A stretch of DNA of 64,000 nt. It comes from Variovorax sp. OAS795. Its GTDB lineage: Bacteria; Pseudomonadota; Gammaproteobacteria; Burkholderiales; Burkholderiaceae_C. The DNA is taken from the NCBI RefSeq assembly GCF_040546685.1, contig NZ_JBEPOH010000001.1, positions 2,666,001-2,730,000 of the forward strand, read 5' to 3'. This document shows positions 40,434 through 59,396 of this stretch, in pieces. The notes beneath the pieces are model-generated. The model did no database searches, was not told where the DNA came from, and was given only the letters and a program-made list of their open reading frames with translations. The position numbers and the translations under genes were made by a program. Position 1 is the first letter of the stretch. The number at the start of each line of letters is the position of its first letter.

Positions 40434-40468
40434 CCCAAGACTTTTCGTTGTTGTTATCCCACATTGCC

Positions 40469-42160
40469 ATGAACATCAAGAAGATTGCTCTTTCACGAAC
40501 CGACGATCCCGTGGGGCCTGGAAAGCCGCTCCCTGCAGCCAGGCTGCGCAAGATGGTGTCGATTGCCTTCACGTGCGGGAGCCTCGCGCTGTCCGGTTGC
40601 GCTGGCGGCAATGGCGCCACCGTGGTGCTGCCGGTGGGCGCCGCCACCGGTCCCTCGGCCGAAGGCTCGCCCGCGCAGACCTACGCGACGACCATCCCGC
40701 CGGGACAGGTCGACGCGGCCATCGCCAGGATCGACGAGCTGGCCGAAGAAATGATGCGCCGCTCGAACGTGCCCGGCATGGCCGTGGCGGTGGTGAAGGA
40801 TGGCCGCACGGTGTACGCCAAGGGCTTCGGCGTTCGCCGCATCGGCTCGCCCGAGCCCGTCGATGCGGACACGGTGTTCCAGCTCGCATCGATGTCCAAG
40901 TCCATCGGTGCGACCGTCGTCGCGGGCCTCGTGGGCAGGAACGTGGTGTCCTGGAACACGCCGGTCGCGGACAAGCTTCCGGGCTTCACGCTCTCGGACG
41001 ACTGGATCGGACGGAACGCGACCATCGGCGATTTCTATGCCCATCGCTCGGGGCTTTCGAAGTCCGTGGGCGATCAACTCGAAGACCTGGGCTATGGCCG
41101 GCAGGAGGTGCTGCAGCGGCTTCGCCATGTGCCACTCGAAGGCTTTCGCACCCACTACGCCTACACGAATTTCGGCCTGACCGCGGGCGCCGAAGCGGCT
41201 GCCGTGGCGTCGGGGCTCGACTGGGCGACGCTCTCCGAGCGCACGCTCTACCAGCCGCTGGGCATGACGTCCACGAGCTCGCGCTTCGCCGATTTCATGC
41301 AGCGCGGCAACCGCGCATCGCCGCACGTGATGCGCAATGGAAGCTACCAGCCGCTCTATCAGCGGCAGCCCGATGCGCAGTCGCCCGCCGGCGGCGTGAG
41401 CGCCAGCGTGAACGACGTGGCGCGCTGGATGGCCATGGTGCTCCAGAACGGCAGCCATGAAGGCCGTCCGTTCATCAAGCCGGAGGCCTTGCTGCCCGCG
41501 ATCAGTGCGCAGATGGTCTCCACGCCTTCGTCCAGTTCGAACACGCGCGCGAGCTTCTACGGCTACGGTTTCAATGTCGGCACCTCGCCGTCGGGACGCG
41601 TGAAGCTCTCGCATTCGGGCGCCTTCCTGCTGGGCGCGGGCACGGCCTTCTCGATGATTCCATCGGCCGGCGTCGCGATCGTCACGGTCACCAACGCCGC
41701 GCCTGTGGGCGCCGCGGAAGCGATGAACGCGGCCTTCGACGATCTCGTCGAGTTCGGCAGGGTCACGCGCGACTGGTTCCCTGCCTACCAGGGCCTGATG
41801 CAGCCGCTGTACGCCCCCGAGGGCTCGCTGGCCGGCCAGCCGCCGCCAGCCCAGCCGGTGGCGCCCCTGGGCGCCAACGCCTACGTCGGGACCTATGCCA
41901 ACAGCTACTACGGCAACGCGGTGGTCGAGGCGGGCGCCGCGGGCATGGTGCTGAAGATGGGGCCGGGCGGCATCAGGACGTTCCCCTTGCGCCACTGGAG
42001 CGGCAACACTTTCGTGATCGACCTGTCGGGCGAAAACGCGGAGCCGGGGTCCGTCTCCAAGATCGACTTCACGCCCGGCCCTTCGGGCCTGGCCGCCAGC
42101 GTGCAGATGGAGTACTACGCGCAGGACCTCGCGCACGGTGTCTTCACCAGGTCGCCCTGA
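40469..42160 (+). CDS. Exported serine hydrolase, class C beta-lactamase/CubicO family
   Basis: The 563-aa predicted lipoprotein has an unusually long N-region before lipobox ALSGC (C44), so ATG at 40553 is an alternative start. The penicillin-binding-protein fold is marked by S141-M-S-K144, Y232-T-N234 and H382-S-G384, all in order, so the enzyme should be active on an ester, amide or D-amino-acid peptide. A C-terminal domain (about 455-563) is beta-rich. The substrate is unknown; homologs include esterases and D-aminopeptidases, and it should not be called a resistance gene. An AraC-type regulator follows on the same strand. Confidence 0.85.
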   Translation: MNIKKIALSRTDDPVGPGKPLPAARLRKMVSIAFTCGSLALSGCAGGNGATVVLPVGAATGPSAEGSPAQTYATTIPPGQVDAAIARIDELAEEMMRRSNVPGMAVAVVKDGRTVYAKGFGVRRIGSPEPVDADTVFQLASMSKSIGATVVAGLVGRNVVSWNTPVADKLPGFTLSDDWIGRNATIGDFYAHRSGLSKSVGDQLEDLGYGRQEVLQRLRHVPLEGFRTHYAYTNFGLTAGAEAAAVASGLDWATLSERTLYQPLGMTSTSSRFADFMQRGNRASPHVMRNGSYQPLYQRQPDAQSPAGGVSASVNDVARWMAMVLQNGSHEGRPFIKPEALLPAISAQMVSTPSSSSNTRASFYGYGFNVGTSPSGRVKLSHSGAFLLGAGTAFSMIPSAGVAIVTVTNAAPVGAAEAMNAAFDDLVEFGRVTRDWFPAYQGLMQPLYAPEGSLAGQPPPAQPVAPLGANAYVGTYANSYYGNAVVEAGAAGMVLKMGPGGIRTFPLRHWSGNTFVIDLSGENAEPGSVSKIDFTPGPSGLAASVQMEYYAQDLAHGVFTRSP

Positions 42161-43316: not shown

Positions 43317-43327
43317 GCTTCACCTGA

Positions 43328-43341
43328 CCGGAAATATCCGG
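43328..43341. promoter_or_regulatory. Inverted repeat CCGGA-N4-TCCGG between two AraC genes
   Basis: The perfect 5-bp inverted repeat CCGGAAATATCCGG lies in a 76-bp A/T-richer spacer, 51 bp before the start of the AraC gene at 43393. It could be an operator for either flanking regulator. No other copy was noticed nearby. Confidence 0.35.
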
Positions 43342-43392
43342 ATACATTAGGCTCACCGCGCGACTCGGGTCTTCGAGAAGCGAGCATCCTGG

Positions 43393-44391
43393 ATGAACCC
43401 CATGCCGCCGGCTCTGCTTCCTTTCAACATGCTCGACGGCCTGCAGAAGGCCGGCATCGACCTGGCCAAGGTGGCCGTGCGCGCCGGCCTTGCGCCCGGC
43501 GACCTGAAGAAGCCGCTCACGCCCGAGCAGGCCGACCGGGTCTTCGTCGTGATCTACGAGACGGTCGACAACCCCGCCGCGGGCCTGGCGCTCGGGCTGC
43601 AGCCGATGCGCGCCGAGCTGTTCGGGGTGGTGGGGTTTTCCGCCATGACCAGCCCCGACTTCGGCGCCGCGCTCGCACGCATCGCGCGCTACAACGCACT
43701 GGTATCGGCCTGCCAGATAGACATCGTTTCGGACGCCGACGCCTGCGAAGTCCGCATCCGCTACGACGGGCCGCCGCGGCCCTACGGCCGCTCGCGGCTG
43801 GACATCCAGATGGGGACGCTGCTGACCTTCGGCCGCATGTTCACCGAACAGGCCATCGTGCCGCTGCGCGTGATGCTGACGGAGCTGCCGCCCTACCACG
43901 CGCACTACGCCAAGGCCTTCGGCTGCGAGGCGCTCTTCGACCAGCCGCACGACGCGATCGTGTTCCGGCGCGCCGACCTCGACTTGCCGCTCGTGAGCGC
44001 CAATCCCCACGTGGCCGCGCTGTTCGACAACGCGGCCGAGCGCGACCTGCGGGCCCATGGCGCTGCGGGCGGTCGAACGGCGGGGGCGGTGCGCGAGATC
44101 TTGCGAGAGCAGTTGCGCGGCGACGCCCCGGACATCGAGGGCGTGGCGACTGCGCTGTCCCTCAGCGCCCGCACGCTGCAGCGCCGGCTCGCGGAGGAGG
44201 GGGTGCGTTTCACCCGGCTGCTGGACGAAGCCCGCATGGAGATGGCACAGCGCTATCTCTCGGCCGGCCGCGCGAGCCTGACCGAGATCGCCTACCTGCT
44301 GGGCTTCTCGGAACCCAATTCCTTCTTCCGCTCCTTCAAGCGCTGGACCGGCAAGACGCCGGCGGATTTCCGGCAGGAACGCGGTCACTAG
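43393..44391 (+). CDS. AraC-family regulator with arabinose-binding-like domain
   Basis: The 332-aa protein belongs to a different AraC subgroup from its three neighbours: its N-terminal part (about 20-200; PAAGLALGLQPMRAELFGVVGF) resembles the OruR/ArgR-type effector domain (Arabinose_bd, PF12625), and the C-terminal HTH (about 235-330) has LSARTLQRRLAEEGVRFTRLLDE and ITEIAYLLGFSEPNSFFRSFKRWTG-type helices. Such regulators often respond to amino acids or small carboxylates. The target is unknown. Its ATG has GGATGG context without a clear Shine-Dalgarno. Confidence 0.85.
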   Translation: MNPMPPALLPFNMLDGLQKAGIDLAKVAVRAGLAPGDLKKPLTPEQADRVFVVIYETVDNPAAGLALGLQPMRAELFGVVGFSAMTSPDFGAALARIARYNALVSACQIDIVSDADACEVRIRYDGPPRPYGRSRLDIQMGTLLTFGRMFTEQAIVPLRVMLTELPPYHAHYAKAFGCEALFDQPHDAIVFRRADLDLPLVSANPHVAALFDNAAERDLRAHGAAGGRTAGAVREILREQLRGDAPDIEGVATALSLSARTLQRRLAEEGVRFTRLLDEARMEMAQRYLSAGRASLTEIAYLLGFSEPNSFFRSFKRWTGKTPADFRQERGH

Positions 44392-44467
44392 CCGGCGCTG
44401 CTTGGCGCGCTGGGATAGTGCGGTGGCAGCCGCAACACTTGCCTGAGTGGCGGGTGGCTCCTATCTT

Positions 44468-44490
44468 TGCATCGTAAAAAAAACGATGCA
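44468..44490. promoter_or_regulatory. Perfect inverted repeat upstream of AraC copy 2
   Basis: TGCATCGT (44468-44475) and ACGATGCA (44483-44490) form a perfect 8-bp inverted repeat around seven A residues. It ends 9 nt before the chosen start codon of the AraC gene. It may be an autoregulatory operator or a translation-control hairpin. Its presence argues against the alternative TTG start at 44467. Confidence 0.5.
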
Positions 44491-44499
44491 CCAACTCCC

Positions 44500-45492
44500 T
44501 TGAATCCCCTCGGCGCCACCTCATTCTTCGCCGGAACGCAGCAGCCGCCGTCTCCAGGCGTCGGCGGGCTGCGGGCTGCGGAGGGCATCGCCCATGCGGA
44601 GCCCGGGGCCGGCACGGCGGCCCATGTGCTGGCATCGATTGGCGCCGCGCAAGGTGTGCTGTGGAAGGACGGCCGGGGTGCGGTCGGGCACTGCGACGTC
44701 GCACCCAGCGAGCAGCACCCGGGCGCCGTGTCGTCACGCGGCCCGCACGATGGCGCCACTTCCATCCTCATGATCGAGAGCGGCGCGCTCTGCATCGAGC
44801 AGGACAATGGCATGGCGTCCAGTTTCGGCGCTGGTGCGATGCTCCTGTGCTTCAGCGCACATGCACTGCGGGGCCACTGGGATCGCGCCCGCTTCAGCTA
44901 CGTGCGCCCGTCCAGGCAGCGGCTCGCGCAAGTGCTCGGCCGCGAACCCGGCGGCGCGCTGCGAAGCATCGAGCCGCTTCGCCATGGCCTGGCGCCGTTC
45001 CTCGGCGCGCAGTTCGGCATGCTGAAAAGCCACGGTGCCATGTTGGCGCCGGCCGACCGGCAACACGTCATCGACAGCATCTTCCAGACCGCCGAGGCCG
45101 TGCTGAAGACGGCGCTGGTGCCTCTGCCGCAGGAGACAGCCGCGCATGTTCCCGAACGGCTGGGTGCGGTCCATCGCTTTATCGAGCGCAACCTGCACCG
45201 GCAAGAACTCAGCGTGGCGGAGATCGCAGAGCGGAGCAACATCTCGCGCTCCAACCTGTACCGCCTGTTCGACGGCCAGGCCAACAGCGTGCATGGCACG
45301 CTGCGGGAGGAGCGGCTCCAGCGGGGGTGGAGCTACCTGCATCGCGCGGAGAGCGACCACCTGAGCATCGGTGCCATCGCGCATGCCTGCGGATTTTCCG
45401 ACCAGGCCGTGTTCAGCAAGCTCTTTCGGCAGCGCTTCGGCATCACGCCGAGGCAAGCCAGGTCCCGGCCGCCGGAGCAGGAGCAGCATTGA
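44500..45492 (+). CDS. AraC-family transcriptional regulator (paralog group, copy 2)
   Basis: This 330-aa regulator is paralogous to copies 1 and 3: sensor domain with VLWKDGRGAVGHCDVAPSE and FGAGAMLLCFSAHALRGHWD, C-terminal HTHs with LSVAEIAERSNISRSNLYRLF and IGAIAHACGFSDQAVFSKLFRQRFGITPRQAR. No ATG is available near the N-terminus. TTG at 44500 aligns its length with the paralogs and leaves the inverted repeat at 44468-44490 outside the gene; TTG at 44467 is possible. It lies 55 nt upstream of the DacB-like gene on the same strand, the likely target. Confidence 0.78.
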   Translation: MNPLGATSFFAGTQQPPSPGVGGLRAAEGIAHAEPGAGTAAHVLASIGAAQGVLWKDGRGAVGHCDVAPSEQHPGAVSSRGPHDGATSILMIESGALCIEQDNGMASSFGAGAMLLCFSAHALRGHWDRARFSYVRPSRQRLAQVLGREPGGALRSIEPLRHGLAPFLGAQFGMLKSHGAMLAPADRQHVIDSIFQTAEAVLKTALVPLPQETAAHVPERLGAVHRFIERNLHRQELSVAEIAERSNISRSNLYRLFDGQANSVHGTLREERLQRGWSYLHRAESDHLSIGAIAHACGFSDQAVFSKLFRQRFGITPRQARSRPPEQEQH

Positions 45493-45547
45493 GCGCAACG
45501 CACCGGCGCAGATCGCCGGCATCGTCTCCATTGAACCGAAACAGGCC

Positions 45548-47185
45548 ATGAAACCGATTCACCACGCAAGCGCCGCCGTCTTCGCCCTGGCGTCCATGCT
45601 GCTCACAAGCTGCGGTGGCGGCGACGGCGGCAACACCTCTGCCGCCAGTCTTCCGGCGCAACCGGTTCCCGCAGAGATCGCCAGCATCCTGCAAAAGCCC
45701 GTGTACCGCGACGCCCGCTGGGCCCTGAGAGTGGTCGACCTCGACACCGGCCGGGTGATCCACGACCTTGGCGCCGGGCAGCAGATGCTGATCGGCTCGG
45801 TGCGCAAGCTGTTCTCGGTCGGGCTGGCCCTCGAGGCGCTGGGGCCCGAGCATGTGTTTCGCACGCCGGTCTACCGCCGCGGCGCCATCGACGGGGCCGG
45901 CGTGCTCCAGGGCGATCTCGTCGTGGTGGCGAGCGGCGACCTGGCCATGGGCGGCCGCACGAATCCGGATGGCAGCTTCGCGCTTCCCGACGAGGACCAC
46001 AACGAAGCCAACGCGCTTGGCAATGCGACGCTTCCCGCGCCCGACCCGCTCGCGGGCTTCGACCGGCTCGCCGCCCAGGTGGCCGCGTCCGGCATCCGCC
46101 AGATCGCGGGCGAGGTGATCGTCGACGACCGGCTGTTCGAGCACTTCGACTTCCGCGGCGAGTTCAAGGCCGGCCCCATGTTCGTGAACGACGATGTGGT
46201 CGACGTCGTGATCGGCAAGGACGCGAGCGTCGATTGGCGCGCGAAGTCGCAGGCCTTCAGTGTCCAGTCCGGCCTTGCGGTCGGCGCTCCCGGCAGCGCG
46301 CTCGACATCTCGCTCGAACCGGAGCTGCCTTCATGCCTTGGCAGCGCGCAATGCCATGGCCGCGTGGCGGGCACGCTGCCATCCGACTTCGTTCCGCCGT
46401 TCACGGGCCGCTTTCCGCTCGTGCGCACCTTCCGGATCGTGGACCCGTCGACCTATGCGCGCACCGTGCTCATCGAGGCGCTCGCGCGTGCCGGCGTCAC
46501 GACCTCGGCACCGGCCGTGGCCCTCAATCCCTCGCGCCGGCTGCCCAGCCTCGCGGCGGGCTCTCCCTATGCACCCGAGACGCGCGTGGCCGAACTGGCG
46601 TCCCATCCCTACAAGGATTTTGCCCGGTACGTGCTCAAGGTGAGCTACAACCTGGGCGCCGACGCAAGCCTGGTGCTGTTCGGCCTGACCCGCGGCGCGA
46701 GCAGCCTTGCCGCTTCGCAGGTGGCCGAAGCCGCCGTGCTGGCGGACCAGTTCCGCATCGCGCCCGAGACCATGCATTTTGTCGACGGCAGCGGCGGTGG
46801 CCTCACCACCGCGACCAATGAAGCCGTGACTTCGCTGCTTGCGGGCATGCGCCGGCGCCCGAGCTATCCGCAGTTCCGCGATGCGCTTCCGCAGTTGGGC
46901 ATCGACGGTTCGCTCGGGTTCGTGAACGACTTCGCGGCCGATCCGGCACTGGCCGGCGCGCGCGGCCAGGTCCATGCGAAGACCGGCACCTTTGTTTCCG
47001 GGTCGGACAAGGGACCGGTGCTTCGGGCCCAGGCGCTGGCCGGCTACATCGACACGAAGAACGGCCGCCACCTCGCGTTCACGCTGGCCGTCAACGACGT
47101 GGGCGTGATCTCAAGCGTCGACGACATCCCGCCGGTGTTCCAGGATTTCGGCACCATATCGGCATGGCTGTGGAAGCTCTATTGA
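45548..47185 (+). CDS. D-alanyl-D-alanine carboxypeptidase/endopeptidase, DacB/PBP4 family
   Basis: The 545-aa lipoprotein belongs to peptidase family S13, which trims and cleaves peptidoglycan peptides in the periplasm. Lipobox LLTSC gives C22. The catalytic motifs are S84-V-R-K87, S366-Y-N368 and K478-T-G480, all intact, and the long insert between motifs 1 and 2 is typical of the family. The lipid anchor is unusual, since classic PBP4 is a soluble or loosely bound periplasmic enzyme. It directly follows an AraC gene. Cell-wall recycling, daughter-wall remodelling or regulation of a beta-lactam response are possible roles. Confidence 0.88.
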   Translation: MKPIHHASAAVFALASMLLTSCGGGDGGNTSAASLPAQPVPAEIASILQKPVYRDARWALRVVDLDTGRVIHDLGAGQQMLIGSVRKLFSVGLALEALGPEHVFRTPVYRRGAIDGAGVLQGDLVVVASGDLAMGGRTNPDGSFALPDEDHNEANALGNATLPAPDPLAGFDRLAAQVAASGIRQIAGEVIVDDRLFEHFDFRGEFKAGPMFVNDDVVDVVIGKDASVDWRAKSQAFSVQSGLAVGAPGSALDISLEPELPSCLGSAQCHGRVAGTLPSDFVPPFTGRFPLVRTFRIVDPSTYARTVLIEALARAGVTTSAPAVALNPSRRLPSLAAGSPYAPETRVAELASHPYKDFARYVLKVSYNLGADASLVLFGLTRGASSLAASQVAEAAVLADQFRIAPETMHFVDGSGGGLTTATNEAVTSLLAGMRRRPSYPQFRDALPQLGIDGSLGFVNDFAADPALAGARGQVHAKTGTFVSGSDKGPVLRAQALAGYIDTKNGRHLAFTLAVNDVGVISSVDDIPPVFQDFGTISAWLWKLY

Positions 47186-47268
47186 GTGGGCTCGCGCGGC
47201 TTCGGCCGATGCTGCACATGCGTTCGTCGAAGCATGCTTTTTGCACGCAAGGGCCCTATAGTCCGTGG

Positions 47269-47814
47269 ATGAAATTCCTTCTCGCCGCGCCCTTGATTGC
47301 GCTCGCTTTTCCCGCGGCCGCCGTCTACAAGTGCCAGGGCGCCGACGGAAGAACCAGCTTCCAGGAGGTACCTTGCGCGGCGGTCGAGAAGCAGACCGAA
47401 GTGCGGACATTCGCCTCGCCTGCAGCACCGCCGGTGCCGGCTGAACGCCCCGGCGTGCAGGGCCCATCGGTCAACGAAGCCATCGCCGGGCGCTACCCGG
47501 TCCGCGGCATGACCCTGGGCGAGCTCCAGTCGGCCATGGGAGACCCGGTGCGCGTCGACACGGGCGACTACGAGGGCGGCTATACCGAGCGGCGCACCTA
47601 CCAACGGCCCGGCGCCACCCTCCATGTCTACACCGAGGACGGCATCGTGCGCTCGGTGCAGACCTCGCAGAACACGCGCGTCGCACAGCGCCCATGCCCT
47701 TCGGCGCAGGACATCAGGAACGAAGAAGTTTCCGCGAACAGCATCTCGCTGAGCTCGAGCGAACGCCGCGAGCGGCAGCGCAGGATCCAGCGCATGAAGG
47801 CGTGCAGTGAATGA
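47269..47814 (+). CDS. DUF4124-type periplasmic protein
   Basis: The 181-aa protein has a Sec signal (MKFLLAAPLIALAFPAAA), then the DUF4124 motif VYKCQGADGRTSFQEVPC near the mature N-terminus, a Pro-rich linker and a C-terminal region (MTLGELQSAMGDPVRVDTGDY) that resembles the small OB-like fold of lipoprotein-SmpA/BamE type domains. A charged, Arg-rich tail ends the protein. Start 47269 removes a non-signal extension. It overlaps the next gene by 8 bp. Function is unknown. Confidence 0.75.
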   Translation: MKFLLAAPLIALAFPAAAVYKCQGADGRTSFQEVPCAAVEKQTEVRTFASPAAPPVPAERPGVQGPSVNEAIAGRYPVRGMTLGELQSAMGDPVRVDTGDYEGGYTERRTYQRPGATLHVYTEDGIVRSVQTSQNTRVAQRPCPSAQDIRNEEVSANSISLSSSERRERQRRIQRMKACSE

Positions 47815-48205
47815 ACGGTGCACAAGCCCGGCCGGCCAACTCGGCGGTATCGTGCGCGCCTGCGTGGCCGCGGCGCTGCTGCTCGTGTCGACCCTGCACG
47901 CGGGCCACGTTGCGGCGCAGTCGCTGAACTGCGGCGGCGGGTTCTTCGGCGTCGGCGATTCGAAGCTCGCGGTGCTGCAACGCTGCGGCGAACCGATGTT
48001 CAGGCAAGCCGTCTGCATACAGCGACCGCAGATGGCCTGGGCACCCTCGTACCACCCCGGCATGCCGCCCCAGCAGGTGCTTGTGCAGCAATGCGTGCCG
48101 ATGGAAGAGTGGACCTACCATCGCGGGCAGGGCAACTTCATGGGCATCGCGCGCTTCCACAACGACACCCTCGAATCCGCACGCGACGGCGCCAGGGCGC
48201 CCTGA
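47807..48205 (+). CDS. DUF2845-type periplasmic protein
   Basis: The 132-aa protein starts with GTG inside the preceding gene's end, has a hydrophobic signal (VRACVAAALLLVSTLHAGHVAAQS) and a short mature domain with paired Cys residues in CGGGFFGVGDSKLAVLQRCGEP, the DUF2845 signature. DUF4124 and DUF2845 domains commonly occur together in beta- and gammaproteobacteria. Function is unknown. It is convergent with the hydrolase gene at 48211-50067, with only 5 nt between the stops. Confidence 0.7.
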   Translation: MNERCTSPAGQLGGIVRACVAAALLLVSTLHAGHVAAQSLNCGGGFFGVGDSKLAVLQRCGEPMFRQAVCIQRPQMAWAPSYHPGMPPQQVLVQQCVPMEEWTYHRGQGNFMGIARFHNDTLESARDGARAP

Positions 48206-48210
48206 CGGTT

Positions 48211-50067
48211 TCAGGACGGGGCAGCGATGCGGCGAAAGATCGAGCCGTTGCTGGTGATCTGCTCTGCGCCATCGACGGTGCGGAACACCAGCTCTGTGAG
48301 ATCGCGGCCGTCGTTGACCGGCACCTTCACCGTCATGCCGGCACGGGTGTCGTCCAGCGGGCGCAACAGGTCGGCATCGGCCCACATCAGGTAGCCGGGC
48401 AGTTCGGGCAGCAGGCTCAACGTGGCGCGCTGCAGGCCATCGCGCACGGCGACCGAATCGGGCGCTTCGTTCGCCACTTCCCAGTGGGTGCCGACGCGGG
48501 CCTGCCAGGCTGGCGAAAGGGGGCCTTGCAGCGGCGCGAGCTGTTGTCCGAGCGGCGCCGTCGCCCAGTAATGGCCGTTGCCGCCGGGCCGGCGCTGAAT
48601 CAGGTAGCGCAAACTCCGCAGCACGACGAACTGGAACGAGGAGCCATCGCCCGTCTCGCTCCACCACCTGCCGTCGCTGCGCAGCGCAAGGCCCTCGTAC
48701 ATCGGCGTCCAGCCTGCGGCCTCCCAGCGCCGCAGGTTCAGGCGGCCGTCGGCGAAGGCGGCCTGGATCGGCCCGCGGTAGCTGCCGTAGATACCGGCGA
48801 CGGAGGGGTCCGGCACCGCCACGGCGGCCGCGGCCGGCGGCGCATGGCTCACGGGCTCGGGCAGCGAGGGGATTGCGCGGCGGTCCTGCAGTGCGTGCAG
48901 CATGATTCGCTCGGCCAGCACGGAGGCGCCGTAGCCGAGGCTGTTGCCGGTCAGCATCAGCACCATGTCGGCTTCGGGCAGCACGTAGAACTCGCTGCCG
49001 AAGAATGCGGTGCCGCCGTTTTTCTGCCACGCGGTCTGGCCGACGGCGTTCATGCCGAACTGGCGCACGTTGTCCCAGCCGAGGCCAAACTGGAATTCGG
49101 GGACCGGGTTGATCAGCAGCTTGGTGGTCTGGTTGGTGCCCATGTCGGCCACGCCGGCAGCCGAGACGATGCGCCTGCCCTCGAACACGCCGCCGCCGAT
49201 GAACATGCGGCCCAGGCGCAGCATGTCGCCCGGCGTGCTGGCCAGGCCGCCCGTGGCGTAGGCCGAGACAAATTCCTCCGGCCACTGCTTGCCGTCGAAC
49301 GGGTGGGCGAAACTGCCCTCGGCGAAAGGCGCCAGGGTGTAGGCCGACTGGTTCATGCCGAGCGGCTCCAGGATGGCTGTGCGCACGAACTCCGTGAAAC
49401 TCCTGCCGGTGATCGCCAGCACCACGCGCTCGATCATCGTGAAGCCGTCGTTGCAATACACCGCCAGCTCGCCGGGCTCGTGCTTGAGGTGCGTGTCGGC
49501 CAGCGCGGCCTCGGTATTGGCGGCGTAGTCGGTGTGCGATGCAAACGCGAAGATGTTGCGGGTGTGCGTGCCGGGCACGCCCGACGAATGGCTCAGCAGG
49601 TGCCGAACCGTGATGCGGCGGTAGCCGTCGGACAGCATGCGGAATTCCGGCAGGTACTGGACCACGGGTGTGTCCAGCGCGACCAGCCCGCGGTCCCGCA
49701 GGATCATGATGGACAGGGCCGCCAGCACCTTGCTGACCGAGCCGATGTTGAAGCGCGTCTGCGTGCCGGCCGGGATGCGGGCCTCGCGGTCGGCCCAGCC
49801 GAAGGCTTCCTGCCACACCACCTGGCCGTTGCTCCACAGCGCCACCGACACGGCGCCGGTTCCGCTCTTGGCCATGGCGTTCGTGATGGCCTCGCGGCCC
49901 CAGTCGACGGCGGGTGTGCTGCTTGCCGAGGCGCTCGAATACGCGCCGAGCGCAGAGCCGTTGCTGCCTCCGCCGCACGCGGGCAGGATGATCGGTGCCA
50001 GCAGCGCCAGGCCTGCGTGTTGCAGGCAGCGGCGGCGATTCAGGCCTTGGAGAAAGTCACTGGTCAT
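48211..50067 (-). CDS. Exported serine hydrolase, beta-lactamase fold, with C-terminal beta domain
   Basis: The 618-aa predicted lipoprotein has RRR before its hydrophobic core and a lipobox-like LPAC (C31), so Tat export is possible. The catalytic domain shows S110-V-S-K113, a Y-C-N motif in AVYCNDGF and K-N-G in WQKNGGTAFF as the third motif. A C-terminal domain of about 200 residues (from GIYGSYRGPIQ) is shared with the hydrolase at 56373, so the two are close paralogs. It forms an operon with the altered hydrolase at 50108, which lies 40 nt upstream. The substrate is unknown; peptidase or esterase activity is likely. Confidence 0.84.
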   Translation of the reverse strand: MTSDFLQGLNRRRCLQHAGLALLAPIILPACGGGSNGSALGAYSSASASSTPAVDWGREAITNAMAKSGTGAVSVALWSNGQVVWQEAFGWADREARIPAGTQTRFNIGSVSKVLAALSIMILRDRGLVALDTPVVQYLPEFRMLSDGYRRITVRHLLSHSSGVPGTHTRNIFAFASHTDYAANTEAALADTHLKHEPGELAVYCNDGFTMIERVVLAITGRSFTEFVRTAILEPLGMNQSAYTLAPFAEGSFAHPFDGKQWPEEFVSAYATGGLASTPGDMLRLGRMFIGGGVFEGRRIVSAAGVADMGTNQTTKLLINPVPEFQFGLGWDNVRQFGMNAVGQTAWQKNGGTAFFGSEFYVLPEADMVLMLTGNSLGYGASVLAERIMLHALQDRRAIPSLPEPVSHAPPAAAAVAVPDPSVAGIYGSYRGPIQAAFADGRLNLRRWEAAGWTPMYEGLALRSDGRWWSETGDGSSFQFVVLRSLRYLIQRRPGGNGHYWATAPLGQQLAPLQGPLSPAWQARVGTHWEVANEAPDSVAVRDGLQRATLSLLPELPGYLMWADADLLRPLDDTRAGMTVKVPVNDGRDLTELVFRTVDGAEQITSNGSIFRRIAAPS

Positions 50068-50107
50068 GGAGCGGCAGGTTGGAGGAAAGTCTGGCGCGAA
50101 GCGCGGA

Positions 50108-51292
50108 TCAAGGCACGTGGGAGGGCGCAAGGCGCTCCGCGATGCGGCGGTACAGCCGGTCGGACATGTTGCCTTCGGGCGAGGCCGGACCCATCGTGGT
50201 GGTGACGGCGATGGCGATCTTTTGCGAGGGCAGGTAGGCCATGAGGCCCGAATAGCCGAAGAAGCTCGGGTTCTGCAGGATCCAGCCGTTCGACACCAGG
50301 ATGCCGAGGCCGTAGTAGCGCTGGCTGTTCATCGGTGCCAACGACGCGGTGCGCGGCTCCAGGAACTGTGCAAAGCCCTTGGGCGAGAGCAGGCGCCCGG
50401 TGGCGATCGCGGCCGCCGAGCGCATCACGTCGGGGACGGTGCTGGTCATGATGGAGCCTTCGGCGATGGTCCACGAAGGGTTCCAGTCGGTGCTGTCCTC
50501 GTACTGGCCGCGGTCGGTGGAGAAGGCGTGCAGCACCGGCGCCGGAATGAACGCGGTCGAGTCGCTGCGCGTCTCGCGCAGGCCCAGCGGCTCCAGGATG
50601 CCGGTGCGGATCAGGTCCGCCACCGGGCGCCCGCTGGCCATCGTCATGACGCGGCCGAGCACGACGAAGTTAGTGTGCGCGTACGAAAAGCAGGTGCCGG
50701 GCTTGCACTTCATCGGCTGCGAAAAGGCGGCGGCAAGCAGCTCGTCCTGCGTCCATTGCCGATGCACATCTTCATAGAGCGGGAGAACCTTCAGGTCCAC
50801 GTAGTCCGCATAGCCGGAGGTGGAGTTGGCCAGCATCGCGAGCGTGATCTCGTCGGCGTGCGGAAAGTCGGGCAGCCATTTGGAGAGCTTGTCCTCGATG
50901 CCGAGCACGCCCTGGTCCTGCAACTGCAACAGCGCGGTCGTCAGGTAGGCGATGGCGATCGAGCCGCTGCGCCAGTGCATGTCGATGGTGGCCGGCTGGC
51001 CCGGTGCGGACTCGCCCCAGGCTTCGGTCAGGAGCGGCGTGTCGCCCACGCTCACGCTCACGATGGCCGATCGCAAGTCGAGTTCGACCATGGCGTCGCG
51101 CACGATGCGGCGCACCCGTTCCGCCGTCGGGGCCGCATCCATGCAGCCCGTTTCGAGCGCCACCTGGCCGGCGGGGCATTCCGGTGCGGCGAAGCTCAGG
51201 TTCGCGGCGCCGCTGCTGCCGTTGCCATCACCGCCGCAGGCTGCAAGAAGGACGAGGAGGGCGGCGGCCGCTGCGCGTGGGATTGTTGTCAT
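50108..51292 (-). CDS. Beta-lactamase-fold lipoprotein with altered catalytic motifs (probable pseudoenzyme)
   Basis: The 394-aa lipoprotein (lipobox LLAAC, C19) has the overall order of the class C/CubicO fold, but each motif differs. The SxxK position reads S111-I-A-I114, with Ile replacing the general-base Lys. The YxN position reads Y-A-H in FSYAHTNFVVLG. The HxG/KTG position reads Y-S-G in FFGYSGLMAYLPS. The rest, including LANSTSGYADY and the LEPLGLRET segment, is well kept, with no stop or frameshift, so selection for fold rather than catalysis is inferred. It may bind a wall peptide or regulate the downstream active paralog. The start MTTIP gives the signal peptide at the N-terminus. 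Confidence 0.8.
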   Translation of the reverse strand: MTTIPRAAAAALLVLLAACGGDGNGSSGAANLSFAAPECPAGQVALETGCMDAAPTAERVRRIVRDAMVELDLRSAIVSVSVGDTPLLTEAWGESAPGQPATIDMHWRSGSIAIAYLTTALLQLQDQGVLGIEDKLSKWLPDFPHADEITLAMLANSTSGYADYVDLKVLPLYEDVHRQWTQDELLAAAFSQPMKCKPGTCFSYAHTNFVVLGRVMTMASGRPVADLIRTGILEPLGLRETRSDSTAFIPAPVLHAFSTDRGQYEDSTDWNPSWTIAEGSIMTSTVPDVMRSAAAIATGRLLSPKGFAQFLEPRTASLAPMNSQRYYGLGILVSNGWILQNPSFFGYSGLMAYLPSQKIAIAVTTTMGPASPEGNMSDRLYRRIAERLAPSHVP

Positions 51293-51659
51293 GGAGCCGG
51301 TGAGGGGGTTGGTGATCGACTCTTCGCGCAAGCTCCTGGCGCCGCCATGCGGCCGTACCGCATCGTCGAGATCCGTTCGATTCTCGCGTTCCGGCCCGCT
51401 GGCTGGTGCTTAAGTTTCATCGGTAATGCGGCCCGCGCGAGAAGGCCGCGAAAAGCGCTTGCCTGCGAGCGCGGAACTTGCACTTTTTTCCGTACATCTT
51501 CACTACATCGGTAATTTGCAGCGGCGCTTCGCACGCAACAGAATTGCGCGGCCATTACGTTCAAAAGAATCGCGCTGTCTTCATGCCTGATGTGACCTGC
51601 CCATTTCGACTCACCGGCCGTGTGGACCCAGCGTCCCGGACCGCCCGGGAGCGGTCACC
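51293..51659. promoter_or_regulatory. Divergent promoter region between the altered hydrolase and AraC copy 3
   Basis: This 367-bp stretch has no gene. Two copies of CATCGGTAAT lie at 51418-51427 and 51506-51515, 88 bp apart, candidate binding sites for the adjacent AraC regulator. The first belongs to a longer block (AAGTTTCATCGGTAAT) that recurs upstream of the GH5 gene at 56231-56246. The A/T-rich part at 51480-51515 is the most promoter-like. A GGGAG site precedes the GTG start of the regulator. Confidence 0.5.
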
Positions 51660-52676
51660 GTGCTTGCCATGACGCCGGGCGCATCCGCCGAAGCGGGACT
51701 GCCGCCGCCGCCGGACGGGCTTCGCCTGTTCTCCTCCGACGTTTCCGCCGCGGCGCCGCGGCAGGGCGATTTCCCGGGCCACATCCTGGCATCGATGAAC
51801 CTGGAGCTCGTGTCCGACCAATCGGTGCGCGGCCGCAGCTTCCTGTGCGAGGACGCCAAGGGATCGGTCGGGCACTGCGAGGTGCCGCCTTCCCAGGTCC
51901 GGTCGGTCCGGCCGCCCTCGAGCGCGCCCCGCGAAGCCGACCTGTGCATCTGGCTGATCGAGCGGGGCCAGCTCGGCATCGAGCAGGACCATGGCGTCCA
52001 GGCCCGGTTCGGTGCCGGCAGCGTGCTGCTGTGCGATCTCTCGCAGCCGCTGCGCGGCCATTGGGAACACTCGCGCTTCGGCTACATCCGTCCCTCCAGG
52101 CAACGGCTCATGGAACTGCTGGGCCATGCACCCCCGCCGCGGCCGCGCGCGGTCGAGACGCTCGAACACCTGGGGCTCGCCCCGTTCCTCGCCTCGCACC
52201 TCGAGATGCTCGCGGCGCATGGTGCGGGCTTGACCCCGCTGGACCTGGAAACGGTGCTCGGGGGCATCTTCCGGATTTCCGAGACCTTGCTCAGGTCGGC
52301 CTTCGCGACCCGGCCCGAGAGCGGCAGCTCGCATGCCGGCGACCGGTTGGAAGCGGTGCGCCGGCACATACAGCGCAACCTGCATCGCCACGACCTGAGC
52401 GTGGCCGACATCGCGCACGGCACCAGCATCTCGCGCGCCCAGCTCTATCGGCTGTTCGCCTCGCAGGACAAGAGCGTGCACGGCACCCTGCGCGAAGAGC
52501 GCCTCGCCAAGAGCATGAGCTACCTGAAGCAGCCCGAAAGCGGCGGCCTGAGCATCGGCGCCATCGCGTATGCATGCGGCTTCTCGGACCAGGCCGTGTT
52601 CAGCAAGCTCTTTCGCCAGCGCTTCGACATGACGCCGCGGGAAGCACGGGCCTGCGCATGCGCCACGCCCTCATGA
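51660..52676 (+). CDS. AraC-family transcriptional regulator (paralog group, copy 3)
   Basis: The 338-aa regulator shares the sensor domain (FLCEDAKGSVGHCEVPPSQ, FGAGSVLLCDLSQPLRGHWE) and the C-terminal HTH pair (LSVADIAHGTSISRAQLYRLF; IGAIAYACGFSDQAVFSKLFRQRFDMTPREAR) with copies 1 and 2. GTG at 51660 has GGGAG 8 nt upstream; ATG at 51669 is nearly equivalent. It is divergent from the two-gene hydrolase operon and upstream of the exported lipoprotein at 52837, so it could control either. Autoregulation through the CATCGGTAAT copies is a reasonable inference. Confidence 0.82.
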   Translation: MLAMTPGASAEAGLPPPPDGLRLFSSDVSAAAPRQGDFPGHILASMNLELVSDQSVRGRSFLCEDAKGSVGHCEVPPSQVRSVRPPSSAPREADLCIWLIERGQLGIEQDHGVQARFGAGSVLLCDLSQPLRGHWEHSRFGYIRPSRQRLMELLGHAPPPRPRAVETLEHLGLAPFLASHLEMLAAHGAGLTPLDLETVLGGIFRISETLLRSAFATRPESGSSHAGDRLEAVRRHIQRNLHRHDLSVADIAHGTSISRAQLYRLFASQDKSVHGTLREERLAKSMSYLKQPESGGLSIGAIAYACGFSDQAVFSKLFRQRFDMTPREARACACATPS

Positions 52677-52752: not shown

Positions 52753-52836
52753 GCGGGCCCTTTATTCGCCGTGCCGCCGCAGAATCCAGCGCAGTTTCGT
52801 CCACACGAGATGCTCAATTTTTCAACGAGGAATCAG

Positions 52837-54906
52837 ATGAATTTCCAGATACGAGGAATGGCGGGCCGCCGTGTCCCGGCATCGTTGCCCGGTGCCGGTG
52901 CGCTCCTGCTCGTGCTTGCATTGGCCGGCTGCGGGGGCGGCGACAACAGCGCGAGCCTGCCGGCGTTCTTTCCGACTGCCCCGCCGCCTGCGGCACCGCC
53001 CGCTGCGGGGCCGGGACCCGGCGCCGACGTCGCGTGCACGGACATCGATGGGAGCAAGATGAATGTCAAGGCAAAGACCATCACCATCAACAACAACACG
53101 GCAGGCACGATCTATCCTGTCTTGGCAACCAGCCAGAATGCGACGAATGAATGGATCCAGGCGTGTTTCCGCGACACCAGCAAGCCGTACCCGACAAAGT
53201 TTGTCTACAAGCTCTATGTGAACGAGGGTGTGGGACTGGCGAAAGGGGCTTCGGTCACGATCACGCTTCCACTCTTCAGCGTGCTGTCCAAGGAAGAGGA
53301 CCGCTACATCACCTGGTGGAACGGTGGACGTGTCTTGTTGGCCGATAACAATGCGAGATTGCGCGCCGCCGAAGACGTCAAACTGCCGGATCCCGTCGGA
53401 ATCAGTTGCACCGCCGGGTGCAACCTGACGACCTATTCAAGCGTCGTGGGGCTGCCAGAGAACGTGTACGCCCAGTTGTCGGAGTACACCTTTGGTGCGT
53501 CCATATTCCCGCCGGGCGATCCGAAGCGGTTGTTGAAGCCCGAGAACGTGGGATACAACATTTCATACGTCGATCACGTCTATATGCCCGTGGCCATCGG
53601 CGTCAGAAGCAACCCGTACATCGGTTTCAGCGGGTCGGCGCAAGCCTTGGATGCCTTCAGGCAAACCCTCAGGTCGTTCCTGACAACCAACGGCGATTTC
53701 TGGCCGGTCTATAACCTGAGCCAGTTGAAATTGCCTGGTGCCTACAACACGTTTGCACAGCGTACGGGCGACCAGAACGCAGAGCCCGACGTGCCGGTTG
53801 GTACCGGCAATTTGCGGCCTACCCTGGTCCCGTCGAGGTGTGTGCCCGGGAATGATGGCTTTTCTTCGGCATGTACGCCGGAAGAAAGCAAGAAGCTCGG
53901 AGTGGGGGTCCAACGCATGCAGAACCTGTGGGGCGCATGTGTCAATTGGGGTGCCGAGGACATCAGCAAGCATGTGGATGCCCAGCCCGTATGCCCGGAC
54001 AACTTGAAATCGACCATGGAAGAGGTGAAGCAGTTCTTCCAGGCCAACCAGGCAAAGTACGTCGGGCTCTACGCTTCGACGTGCGATGCGACCGAGTTCC
54101 CGCCGACCCCCTTCAATTTCCTGACCGCCCTTTCGCACATCTACGGTTGGGTTCCATTCAATGAACGTTGCGGCGCGGGCGTGAACGCGTTGGCCGAGAC
54201 CCCGGGCTGGGATCATGCCAAGGTCCAACTGGAATATATCCAGAACTTGCAATACAACTACGATCAAACGCCCACGCCGCCCGCAGATCGGATTTTCAAT
54301 CCTTATGTCAAGCTGATACACAAGGACCTCGACATGGCTGCCTACGGATTTTCAGTCGACGACTCGGTAGGCTTCATGAGCGAATTGGGAGACGGACTTG
54401 TCTTCAACGTCGGCGGAACCAACGGCCTTGAGAACGAAGCTGCGTTCAACTATGTCGACGGGTTTTCAGTAAGCACGGGTGGACCGGACGGCCCTGAAAA
54501 CATTCCGGTGATCAAGAAGTACGGTGCCTGCGCACTGGTGGGCGGGAAGGCGGATTGCGGTGGCGACGTCATCATGCCAACCAACACGCGAATCATGGGA
54601 TTCAGAGTTGGAACGCCGTCTGCTTATCCTTTGGAGGTGCACTTCACCGATGCGAAAAGCAACGAATACAAATTCACGGTCAAGAAGCCTTTTGCCGCAT
54701 GCAAGATCGATTCGAGCAACACGGCATGTGCGCCCATCGCGCCGGCAGACCTCGTAGATCCGCTGGCCTGCAGCGTGGTCAATGCGAGCGGTGCGCTCCA
54801 CGCCAATTCGGCTGCATGGTGCAGGCAGATTGTTCCGGTTCAAGCCAAGACGGGCAACAAGGTCGAAAACTACTTCAACACGACCAGCCCCGTCGATCTG
54901 CTCTAG
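52837..54906 (+). CDS. Large exported lipoprotein, possibly GH64/thaumatin-like fold
   Basis: The 689-aa protein has a signal peptide and lipobox LALAGC, a Pro-rich linker and then a Cys-rich secreted domain. The region from about residue 65 (KTITINNNTAGTIYPVLATS; ASVTITLPLF; YNISYVDHVYMPVAI) resembles the GH64/thaumatin-like superfamily of beta-1,3-glucan-active proteins; this is a weak, by-eye match and catalytic residues are not assigned. The gene is clearly lower in GC and has different codon use from its neighbours (for example TTG, AAT and ATA codons), suggesting transfer. AACGAGG precedes the ATG. It is followed by a strong terminator and a convergent GH5 gene, in line with a glycan-related role. 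Confidence 0.6.
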   Translation: MNFQIRGMAGRRVPASLPGAGALLLVLALAGCGGGDNSASLPAFFPTAPPPAAPPAAGPGPGADVACTDIDGSKMNVKAKTITINNNTAGTIYPVLATSQNATNEWIQACFRDTSKPYPTKFVYKLYVNEGVGLAKGASVTITLPLFSVLSKEEDRYITWWNGGRVLLADNNARLRAAEDVKLPDPVGISCTAGCNLTTYSSVVGLPENVYAQLSEYTFGASIFPPGDPKRLLKPENVGYNISYVDHVYMPVAIGVRSNPYIGFSGSAQALDAFRQTLRSFLTTNGDFWPVYNLSQLKLPGAYNTFAQRTGDQNAEPDVPVGTGNLRPTLVPSRCVPGNDGFSSACTPEESKKLGVGVQRMQNLWGACVNWGAEDISKHVDAQPVCPDNLKSTMEEVKQFFQANQAKYVGLYASTCDATEFPPTPFNFLTALSHIYGWVPFNERCGAGVNALAETPGWDHAKVQLEYIQNLQYNYDQTPTPPADRIFNPYVKLIHKDLDMAAYGFSVDDSVGFMSELGDGLVFNVGGTNGLENEAAFNYVDGFSVSTGGPDGPENIPVIKKYGACALVGGKADCGGDVIMPTNTRIMGFRVGTPSAYPLEVHFTDAKSNEYKFTVKKPFAACKIDSSNTACAPIAPADLVDPLACSVVNASGALHANSAAWCRQIVPVQAKTGNKVENYFNTTSPVDLL

Positions 54907-56126: not shown

Positions 56127-56372
56127 GTGGGTGGCGCGTTCGCGCGTTCAGGGTTCGATGTTCAAGAGCGTCTCTCAGGCGCATCGCGACCCTTCGGGAT
56201 TCTGGCCATCCCTCGCGCGGGCGGGCGCTCAAGTTTCATTGGTAATCCGCCGGGACGCGCAAACACGCTTCCCGGCGGCCTCGTTTCACTGCAGAGCGCT
56301 TAAGCTCGATCGATCCACAAGAAGAGGTTGTTGCAGCCACCCGCGGGATGGCTCGCACCACGCAAAGGAACC
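56127..56372. promoter_or_regulatory. Divergent promoter region between GH5 and the serine hydrolase
   Basis: This 246-bp region holds AAGTTTCATTGGTAAT (56231-56246), a near copy of the site at 51412-51427. Read on the minus strand, the similarity continues past the motif through shared AGAATC and CGATGCG blocks, so the two promoter regions look derived from one another. The AAAGGA ribosome-binding site of the hydrolase is at about 56364-56369. Confidence 0.5.
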
Positions 56373-58289
56373 ATGACTGCAACCCACGACCCCGCGAGCC
56401 TCCACGCTTCTTCCCTGCGCATGTCGCGCCGCCATTGCCTGGGCCTGGCCACGGCAGGACTGGTCGCGCCGCTGCTGCAAGCCTGCGGCGGAGGCGACTC
56501 GAACGGGGGCGGCGCGGCCTCGCTCTCGGCCGACTCCTCGAGTTCCGAGGCGGTGCGCTGGTGCCGCGAGGCCATCCAGGCGGCCCTCGGCAAGAGCGGC
56601 AGCGCCACCACGGCGATCTCCGTCGCCATGCTGGCCGAGGACCGCGTGATCTGGCGCGAAGCCTTCGGCCTTGCCGACCGCGAGCGCGGACTCCTGGCCA
56701 CGCCCGACATGCGCGTCAACATCGGCTCGGTCTCGAAGATGTTCGCGACGCTGGCCGTGATGATCCTTCGCGACCGCGGCAAGCTGGCGCTGGAGCAACC
56801 GGTCGTCGAGCTGCTGCCTTCCTTCCGCATGCTCTCGCCGAACTACACGCGCATCACGGTGCGCCACCTGGTTTCCCATGCATCGGGGGTGCCGGGCACC
56901 AACTACCGGAACGCCTTCGGTTTTGCGCCCGTCCCCGGCTACCTGCAGGACACGATGGATGCGCTGTCGCAGTCGCACCTGAAGCACGAGCCGGGCGAAC
57001 TCTCGGTGTATTGCAACGATGGATTCACCCTGGTCGAACCACTGGTGCGCGAGCTCACGGGCAAGAGCTTCACCGACTTCGTCCAGCAGGAGATCTTCGA
57101 CCCCCTGGGCATGAGCCTGTCCGGTTATCCCCTCGGGTACCTGCCCGAAGGGACCTTCGTGCATCCCTACTACGAAGGCCAGCGGCAGCCGCAGGAGATG
57201 ATGCCCTGCCATGCCACCGGCGGTGCGTTCTCCACGCCCACCGACCTGCTGAAGCTCGCGCGCCTGTTCCTGGACCAGGGCACGTACCAGGGCCGGCGCA
57301 TCGTCTCGGCGGACGCCATCCGCGAGATGGGCGTGGACCAGGCCGCCTATGTGCGCATCGCCAATCCGGCGGCTTCGTCCACGACCTGGGGACTCGGGTG
57401 GGACGACGTCCGGGAGCAGGGCGTGGCGGCCGGGGGCTTGCAGGCCTGGCAGAAAGGCGGCGACTCCTTTTTCTTCGCGTCCCGGTTCATCGTGCTGCCG
57501 GAGCCGCGGCTGGCCATGATGATCAGCGGCAACGGCTTCGACTACGGCGCCGTGGCGCTGGTGCAGGGCGCGATGTTGCGCGCGGCCCAGGAGCGCGGCG
57601 CGATCAAGGCCCTGCCGCCCAGCATGGCCCGGGCGGTGCCGCCGGTGGTGTCTTCGTCGGCGGACATCTCGAAGCTCGCCGGCATCTATGCCAGTGAATC
57701 GCGGCCACTCCAGGTGCTGGACAATGGCGACGGTTCGTTGAGGCTCAACGTCTGGTCTCCGGCTGGCCGGTGGGAGCCCGTGGCGGGAATCGGGGATATG
57801 CGTGAGCGAAGCGACGGCGCCTGGTGGTCCGACGAATATGCCTCCGCCTACATTCGCTTCCCGACGGTCAAGGGACATCCCTACATGGTGTCGCACGCGC
57901 TCTCGGGCAGCCAGCAATACTGGGCCGGCACCATGCTGGGCGAGCGGCTGCCGCCACTGGACGCGCCGCTGCCCGACGCCTGGCGCGCACGCGTGGGCAG
58001 CCGCTGGGTCTGCACCAACGAATCCCCGGACTCGACGGCCAGGCTGGAGGGAGCGAGGACCGGCCGCATCGGCGAGCTGAAGGAATTGCCGGGCTATATC
58101 TTCTGGGCCGACAAGCAATTGCTGCGGGTGATCGACGACCACACCGCGGGCATGACGGTCGAGATTCCTGGATTTGCGGGCCGCGATCTGGTCGAATTGC
58201 GCATGGTCCCCGTGCAGGGGGCCGCGAGCTCCCCGGGGCAGCCCGAGGAACTGCACGAAGGCAGCTTCGTCTTCATTGCGCAATCGTAG
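56373..58289 (+). CDS. Exported serine hydrolase, beta-lactamase fold, with C-terminal beta domain (paralog)
   Basis: The 638-aa predicted lipoprotein has an N-terminal twin-Arg-like MSRRHCLGLATAG sequence and lipobox LLQAC (C38). Motifs are S119-V-S-K122, Y-C-N in SVYCNDGF and K-G-G in WQKGGDSFFF. Catalytic and C-terminal domains (GIYASESRPLQ onward, about 200 residues) parallel the protein at 48211, so both arose from one ancestor. The C-terminal domain is probably a small beta-barrel as found in CubicO-type hydrolases. It is divergent from the GH5 gene and 18 nt upstream of the enolase-superfamily gene, possibly in one operon with it. Confidence 0.84.
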   Translation: MTATHDPASLHASSLRMSRRHCLGLATAGLVAPLLQACGGGDSNGGGAASLSADSSSSEAVRWCREAIQAALGKSGSATTAISVAMLAEDRVIWREAFGLADRERGLLATPDMRVNIGSVSKMFATLAVMILRDRGKLALEQPVVELLPSFRMLSPNYTRITVRHLVSHASGVPGTNYRNAFGFAPVPGYLQDTMDALSQSHLKHEPGELSVYCNDGFTLVEPLVRELTGKSFTDFVQQEIFDPLGMSLSGYPLGYLPEGTFVHPYYEGQRQPQEMMPCHATGGAFSTPTDLLKLARLFLDQGTYQGRRIVSADAIREMGVDQAAYVRIANPAASSTTWGLGWDDVREQGVAAGGLQAWQKGGDSFFFASRFIVLPEPRLAMMISGNGFDYGAVALVQGAMLRAAQERGAIKALPPSMARAVPPVVSSSADISKLAGIYASESRPLQVLDNGDGSLRLNVWSPAGRWEPVAGIGDMRERSDGAWWSDEYASAYIRFPTVKGHPYMVSHALSGSQQYWAGTMLGERLPPLDAPLPDAWRARVGSRWVCTNESPDSTARLEGARTGRIGELKELPGYIFWADKQLLRVIDDHTAGMTVEIPGFAGRDLVELRMVPVQGAASSPGQPEELHEGSFVFIAQS

Positions 58290-58307: not shown

Positions 58308-59396
58308 ATGCGTTCCATTGCAAGGATCGCGTGCCGGCTCTTCAGGGTTCCGCTTGCCGAAACCTTGACGGACGCCAAGCATGGCGCGCACACGCATTTC
58401 GAGCTGGTCACCGCCACGGTGCAACTGGAGGACGGCAGCCAGGGCACGGGCTACACCTACACCGGCGGCAAGGGCGGCCATGCCATCAAGGCCATGATCG
58501 ACCACGACCTGGCGCCTGCGCTGATCGGACGGGACGCGGCGGAGGTCGAAGGCATCCACGAATTCAGCGAGTGGCATGTGCACTACGTGGGGCGCGGCGG
58601 CATCGCCTCGTTCGCGATCTCCGCCATCGACATCGCGCTGTGGGACTTGCGCGGCAAGGCCGCCGGGGCGCCGCTCTGGAAGCTGGCCGGCGGCGCAGCG
58701 AACACCTGCAAGGCCTATTGCGGCGGCATCGACCTCGCGTTCCCGCTCGACAGGCTGCTGGACAACGTGCGCGGCTATCTGGCCAAGGGCGTGAACGGCG
58801 TCAAGATCAAGATCGGTCGGCCGGACCTGGAGGAAGACATCGCGCGCATCCGGGCCGTGCGCGCGCTCGTCGGCGACGGCGTCACGCTGATGGTCGATGC
58901 CAACTATGCAATGAGCGTGGACCAGGCCATTGCCGCGGGCAAGCGCTTCGAGCCCTTCGACGTGTACTGGTTCGAGGAGCCGACCATCCCCGACGACTAT
59001 CGCGGTTATGCACGCATCGCCGAGGCCACCGGCGTCCCGCTGGCCATGGGCGAGAACCTGCACACGATCCATGAGTTCGACCATGCGTTCGAGCAGGCCG
59101 GGCTCTCGTTCATCCAGCCCGATGCCTCGAACTGCGGCGGCATCACGGGCTGGCTGAAGGTGGCCGAACGCGCGCGCCGCCACGGCATCCCGGTGTGTTC
59201 GCACGGCATGCAGGAGCTGCATGTGAGCCTGCTGGCGGCGCAGCCCAATGCAGGCTGGCTGGAGATTCACAGCTTCCCGATCGACGAGTACACAGTGCGC
59301 CCGCTGGTGATCGAGAACCAGCGTGCGGTCGCGCCCGACGCGCCGGGGATCGGCGTGAGTTTCGACTGGGCGAAACTCTCGCCGCATGCGGCCTAG
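58308..59396 (+). CDS. Mandelate racemase-type enolase-superfamily enzyme
   Basis: The 362-aa enzyme should abstract a proton alpha to a carboxylate using a divalent metal. All landmark residues of the mandelate-racemase subgroup are present and offset by exactly two from Pseudomonas putida mandelate racemase: K166-x-K168, metal ligands D197, E223 and E249, and the D272/H299 dyad. This points to a racemase or acid-sugar dehydratase. [14 protein letters not shown] and SHGMQELH are typical. The true substrate cannot be read from the sequence. The stop codon TAG lies within the target-site duplication of the following insertion sequence, so the gene escaped damage by chance or by target preference. 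Confidence 0.88.

Follow-up and report, generated by a model that had tools for sequence, protein, structure and literature searches.

A conserved clade of S12-fold proteins with replaced catalytic motifs, represented by a predicted lipoprotein of Variovorax

What does a protein with the fold of the serine beta-lactamases do once the motifs for serine chemistry have been replaced? This question is raised by a gene at 50108..51292 (minus strand) in a 64,000-nucleotide stretch of the Variovorax sp. OAS795 genome (contig NZ_JBEPOH010000001.1, positions 2,666,001 to 2,730,000), subsequently designated the window. The initial annotation of this focal gene had described an intact frame, signal peptide and fold, and these features are indeed present. 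The reading frame is unbroken over 394 codons from the ATG at 51292, yielding 394 amino acids (the coordinates include the stop codon). The N-terminus of the protein, MTTIPRAAAAALLVLLAAC, contains the lipobox-like sequence LAAC. From reading the sequence, the signal peptide (51236..51292, minus strand; lipobox-like LLAAC) presents Cys19 as the likely lipidated residue. Residues 60–379 match PF00144 (E 6.5e-41), which was the only domain returned by the Pfam scan, and the predicted structure reaches a mean predicted local distance difference test score (pLDDT) of 86.9. With a profile score above the curated cut-off and the matching fold, the protein belongs to S12/PF00144 as a fold family. We conclude that the focal gene is a real gene encoding a predicted lipoprotein of the serine beta-lactamase/S12 fold. 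As developed below, we consider it probable that the protein is a maintained pseudoenzyme from an S12 clade of single origin, in which a reshaped pocket binds a ligand non-covalently beside D-peptide hydrolases.

R61 DD-peptidase, alkaline D-peptidase and the D-stereospecific hydrolases carry the motifs SxxK, YxN and HxG. To locate the counterparts in the focal protein, we used MAFFT alignments and a profile-profile alignment in which 30 clade members were set against 11 active ones. SxxK corresponds to S111-I-A-I114 (50951..50962, minus strand), in which the serine is present and the lysine is replaced by Ile. YxN corresponds to Y204-A-H206 (50675..50683, minus strand), in which the tyrosine is retained and the asparagine is replaced by His. 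Both assignments agree with the initial annotation, which had reported all three motifs as replaced. It had, however, taken Y347-S-G349 (50246..50254, minus strand) for the third motif, and this part did not stand. In all of these alignments the focal segment QNPSFFGYSG pairs without gaps with HNGS(I/L)PGYE(T/S) of the closest active relatives, and the true counterpart of [HK]xG is therefore Q340-N341-P342 (50267..50275, minus strand). Y347 belongs to an ordinary G-F/Y step (G346-Y347 in the focal protein) that is common in active relatives, 23 of 27 having Gly and 23 of 27 Phe or Tyr at the respective positions.

The replacements are shared by the relatives of the focal protein. Our main alignment comprised 201 members (the window protein, 120 listed homologs and proteins from 80 loci), supplemented with 5 divergent relatives and 27 active S12 proteins. 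Position 114 is Ile in 199/201 members and Phe, Tyr or Glu in the 5 divergent proteins, as opposed to Lys in 27/27 active ones. His206 is found in 201/201 members and 5/5 divergent proteins, while 25/27 active proteins have Asn. Gln340 occurs in 195/201 members and 2/5 divergent proteins, compared with His or Lys in 26/27 active ones, and Pro342 in all 201 members and all 5 divergent proteins, compared with Gly in 27/27. The complete set of Ile, His, Gln and Pro is present in 193 of the 201 members, and Lys114, Asn206, His or Lys at 340 and Gly342 are absent from all of them. The nucleophile position varies more widely (Ala in 112 members, Ser in 74, Asn in 10 and Gly in 5) and is occupied by Gln in three of the divergent proteins. 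Two homolog searches returned 710 and 5394 matches at E <= 1e-3; motifs were read in 240 listed proteins, 120 from each, and all 240 carry the clade Ile together with YxH. In the second search, which started from a mycobacterial query, 120/120 listed proteins have A111, I114, Y204, H206, Q340 and P342. A later set of 18 loci, 14 of them new and 4 repeating loci of the first 80 by core sequence, has YxH throughout; position 114 could be read in 17 of them (15 Ile, one Tyr, one Phe, none Lys). Canonical Lys or Asn, which the initial annotation had named as evidence against its view, was thus encountered neither in the 201 members nor in the 5 divergent proteins, the 120 further proteins or the 18 later loci. 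Loci L130 and L134 lack Pro342, and L130 also lacks Gln340, but Y204 and H206 remain in both; the fragment L145 gives no alignment around positions 340–342. Y204 and H206, both invariant in 201/201 members and 5/5 divergent proteins, are the most constant residues of the pocket. Of note, three Nocardiaceae loci (L041, L045 and L077) encode a divergent relative near an ordinary clade gene, in which RIGQPMEP replaces the SxxK region and YAHSD is kept.

Do these proteins share one origin? Trees were calculated from 48 clade sequences (the focal protein, 33 from the 80 loci, 9 from the 120 listed homologs and all 5 divergent proteins) and the 27 active sequences after removal of the motif columns (SxxK, YxN and the G-Y step, in a second tree also QNP). 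The clade formed one side of a branch with a support of 100 in the Shimodaira-Hasegawa-like approximate likelihood ratio test (SH-aLRT) in a quick tree. In a more careful tree the clade branch obtained 100/100 (bootstrap/SH-aLRT) against 20 active sequences, 7 of the 27 having been left out (long ones and those joined to them). The trees are unrooted; as the wider S12 family carries the motifs, their loss by the clade is the more parsimonious direction, rather than a gain by all others.

The clade genes are also under purifying selection. Between the focal gene and its counterpart in another Variovorax locus (L001), the Nei-Gojobori ratio of nonsynonymous to synonymous substitutions (dN/dS) is 0.108/0.417 = 0.26, and among 65 clade gene pairs with 80–99.5% protein identity, which are not mutually independent, the median is 0.30 and the maximum 0.58. 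Furthermore, 22 positions flanking the motifs have a mean entropy of 1.02 bits, compared with 1.66 bits over the remaining 344 (p 0.0013 by Mann-Whitney test; 112 members left after thinning at 80% identity, catalytic positions excluded, windows chosen after seeing the alignment). The nucleophile position itself ranks only 163rd of 376. The hallmarks of a pseudoenzyme, namely loss of catalytic residues, purifying selection and a single conserved clade, are therefore all found here. As far as sequence comparison can tell, the maintained pseudoenzyme proposed by the initial annotation is supported; the K-to-I and N-to-H changes mark a conserved clade with dN/dS below 1, and the third change is Gln-x-Pro for HxG, not H-to-Y at position 347. 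A functionless, decaying duplicate or a sequencing error would account for the lost motifs and for nothing further. Since the same replacements run through the whole clade, dN/dS is well below 1 and the frame is intact, decay limited to this strain is excluded, and we give the explanation as a whole next to no credence.

Next, we compared the focal protein with characterized systems. Its whole fold is common to Streptomyces R61 DD-peptidase, alkaline D-peptidase and the D-stereospecific hydrolases (3pte/1ikg, 4y7p, 3wwx, 9s7k). Its predicted structure aligns with theirs over 318–327 residues at 2.4–2.6 A and 22–26% identity, and these S12 enzymes are nearest by sequence too. Unlike these enzymes, the clade reads [AS]xxI, YxH and QxP, while all 27 aligned active sequences have the Lys. 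One could nevertheless imagine a slow but ordinary S12 hydrolase with Ser111 still acting as nucleophile, Tyr204 as base and Lys dispensable; the focal protein does have Ser111 and Tyr204, and 74/201 members have the Ser. However, Ala takes the place of this Ser in 112/201 members and in the entire mycobacterial-type set (120/120), Lys, Asn and HxG are all lost, and a Pro sits in the strand motif with which active relatives hold their substrate. We regard this explanation as very unlikely. Database labels such as CubicO, AmpH or class C beta-lactamase have PF00144 in common with the focal protein, but none of the 12 NCBIfam families listed for it (AmpH, class C beta-lactamase and D-aminopeptidase included) reached its curated cut-off; the best score, for AmpH, was 46.9 bits where 266 are required. 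Many database proteins of this kind bear enzyme names, e.g. CubicO peptidase, although all 240 listed ones have the clade Ile and YxH, and the motifs lend these names no support. Fold and family are already known; for the motif-replaced branch, a search of open-licence articles in PubMed Central brought up none that appears to describe it, subscription papers lying outside this search. A deep branch that is non-catalytic or re-tooled, in the fold of penicillin targets and beta-lactamases, offers a natural experiment on what this fold can do without serine chemistry.

The constancy of Tyr-x-His raises the question of whether the pocket has been turned to another kind of catalysis. In such a repurposed enzyme, Tyr204 and His206 would serve as an acid/base pair in a reaction that does not pass through an acyl-enzyme. 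Their invariance across all 201 members, the 5 divergent proteins, the 120 further proteins and the 18 later loci speaks for it, as do their persistence where Ile114, Gln340 or Pro342 vary (L130, L134) and the drift of the nucleophile position among Ala, Ser, Asn, Gly and, in three divergent proteins, Gln. On the other hand, neither a cofactor nor a metal site came to light, and binding proteins keep such residues as well. We therefore treat repurposed catalysis as a possibility of rather low probability. In the pseudoenzyme reading that we prefer, Lys, Asn and HxG disappeared from an ancestor that had SxxK, YxN and HxG, and a replacement pocket became fixed around Tyr-x-His, mostly with Ile and Gln-x-Pro, as alignment, tree and conservation show. 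The focal protein carries an export signal, of the lipoprotein type, and purifying selection maintains the gene. Acyl-enzyme chemistry is most likely absent, and the reshaped pocket would bind its ligand non-covalently.

Candidates for this ligand are suggested by the gene adjoining the focal gene. Only 40 bases away lies its putative operon partner (48211..50067, minus strand), a 618-residue S12 protein whose best solved relative is the DL-peptidase Lip3 of Paenibacillus (9sn1; partner residues 68–612, E 1.5e-60). According to a commentary (PMC13188892), lipopeptide induces Lip3 and Lip7 of Paenibacillus, and both enzymes cut syringafactin at DL-amide bonds. The focal protein itself is only distantly related to Lip3 (E 1e-10) and lacks the catalytic motifs. 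The partner retains the full motif set noted in the initial annotation, i.e. SVSK, YCN and KNG, the last with Lys where most active relatives carry His. Having near full-length homology and intact motifs, it is of the Lip3 type and is predicted to cleave DL-amides. A Lip3-type gene also adjoins the clade gene in L001, where such genes flank it on both sides, and in L002 from Rudaea, a genus of another class. The clade genes of the window and Rudaea are 69% identical and the Lip3-type genes 71%, a similarity to be expected had the two genes travelled together. For the partner, dN/dS between the window and L001 is 0.144/0.471 = 0.31. The earlier description of the focal gene as lying next to an active paralog is thus borne out as regards probable activity, given the intact motifs and the recurrence in L001 and L002, but the trees place the partner on a distant S12 branch, so it is no recent duplicate. 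Because the recurrent neighbours are S12/S13 D-peptidases with intact motifs and in this lineage the Lip3-type DL-peptidase shares the putative operon, we propose, more tentatively, a D-amino-acid-containing peptide or lipopeptide as the likeliest ligand, which might be captured, sensed or handed to the hydrolase at the cell surface. The pairing with a Lip3-type gene suggests a role in the handling of D-peptides or lipopeptides between soil microbes. In the Rudaea locus, according to the gene calls, the end of the clade gene is overlapped by a gene for an alpha/beta hydrolase carrying a TAP-like domain (L002 9098-10723, plus strand), and the Lip3-type gene, clade gene and hydrolase gene may form one operon.

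Further S12 and S13 genes lie in the wider surroundings. The window's genome has ten PF00144 genes, four of which lie within 18 kb: an S12+DUF3471 gene (40448..42160, plus strand; start codon not fixed), the partner, the focal gene and a second Lip3-type S12 gene (56328..58289, plus strand) that is 48% identical to the partner. An S13 gene of the DacB/PBP4 type (45371..47185, plus strand), whose real start probably lies inside the open reading frame (ORF), is found between them. In the flanks of the 80 loci, the clade profile detected 19 other S12 ORFs in 1139 kb, coming from 13 loci; 6 of them, scoring above 300 bits, are clade relatives themselves. Ten of these genomes, 56.1 Mb in all, gave 57 non-focal matches; relative to this, flanking S12 genes are about 16-fold enriched per megabase, in a comparison of searches differing in procedure and threshold, with hand-chosen genomes and loci that are not all independent. 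In L007, L037, L041, L045 and L077 the clade gene has an S12+DUF3471 gene nearby, and in L005 an S13 gene. An operon fixed throughout the clade was looked for and not found, the families common to most loci reflecting synteny within Mycobacteriaceae or Streptomycetaceae.

Several observations weigh against the pseudoenzyme reading. Ser is retained at the nucleophile position in 74/201 members, the focal protein included, Ile114, Gln340 and Pro342 are not universal (5 divergent members; L130, L134), and a strictly conserved Tyr-x-His is equally compatible with a different sort of active enzyme. With the clade profile, which does not pick up S12+DUF3471 genes (that of L037, for example), no further S12 ORF was detected in the flanks of 67/80 loci. 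Beyond the window, L001 and L002, no Lip3-type gene was seen among the profile matches of the other loci, and the flanks of the 80 loci revealed no neighbour common to the whole clade. Such absences are uncertain, since simple gene calling failed to recover the focal gene in 12/80 loci in one run and found it in 76/80 in another.

A narrower role had been suggested by the initial annotation, namely that of a wall-peptide receptor or regulator. Such a protein would bind muropeptides or stem peptides and control neighbouring peptidases or a response to wall damage. This fits the R61-like fold, the nearby S13 and S12 genes, the L,D-transpeptidase gene adjoining the clade gene in L022, and one of the 120 listed homologs (P0110), which has an N-terminal MliC (lysozyme inhibitor) domain. 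However, PF00144 is the sole Pfam domain of the focal protein, the best solved relative of the partner is a lipopeptide peptidase, and clade members occur in Nitrososphaeraceae, archaea that have no peptidoglycan. The restriction to the wall therefore finds little favour with us and appears improbable. In the same region, 58308-59396 (plus strand) was rejected as a muropeptide dipeptide epimerase of a wall island, its best solved relative being 3,6-anhydro-alpha-L-galactonate cycloisomerase (E 3e-174).

Finally, we asked where the clade occurs. A contig scan found 431 stretches encoding a relative, and the 80 that were kept comprise 69 from Actinomycetota, 9 from Pseudomonadota and 2 from Nitrososphaerota. 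Profile matches at E <= 1e-80 were obtained in 2/101 genomes of the window's genus, 2/299 of its family, 2/398 of its phylum, 2/197 of Rudaea's family, 29/150 of the genus of L010 (Streptomyces) and 35/98 of the genus of L033 (Mycobacterium), and at E <= 1e-60 in 9/70 genomes of the Nitrosocosmicus family. These counts include the genome at each centre and are lower bounds, many genomes having had only some candidates scored; L001 and G049 are perhaps one genome. Three archaeal matches sit on contig C1, more than 1.3 million bases from its start, so they are not accounted for by stray bacterial contigs. The clade is thus patchy in Proteobacteria, Actinomycetota and Nitrososphaeraceae archaea, which suggests horizontal transfer. 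It is conceivable but doubtful that the clade is an ancient family of enzymes, spanning both domains, in which the acyl-serine mechanism gave way to a new Tyr-x-His site, usually with Gln-x-Pro, that acts on an exported or environmental metabolite.

Among plasmids, 3/72,556 records match at E <= 1e-40, and among phages 779/50,697 match the query at E <= 1e-10. S12-fold tail proteins are known from mycobacteriophages (Bxb1 tail wing base, 9d93; Minerva gp40). Phage copies were rejected as clade members on the one gene examined, gp40 of Mycobacterium phage Minerva (L132), a minor tail protein whose S12 domain, unlike the clade, keeps SSTK, YTN and HPG. Within the window, the gene for the cycloisomerase relative at 58308-59396 adjoins the second Lip3-type gene and an IS481-type transposase gene. 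A 711-residue ORF (52771-54906, plus strand), lipoprotein-like by eye and without a match in Pfam and NCBIfam scans, lies between an AraC regulator gene and a GH5 gene. Four AraC-family regulators are encoded inside 11 kb (42138-52676) amid the S12/S13 genes.
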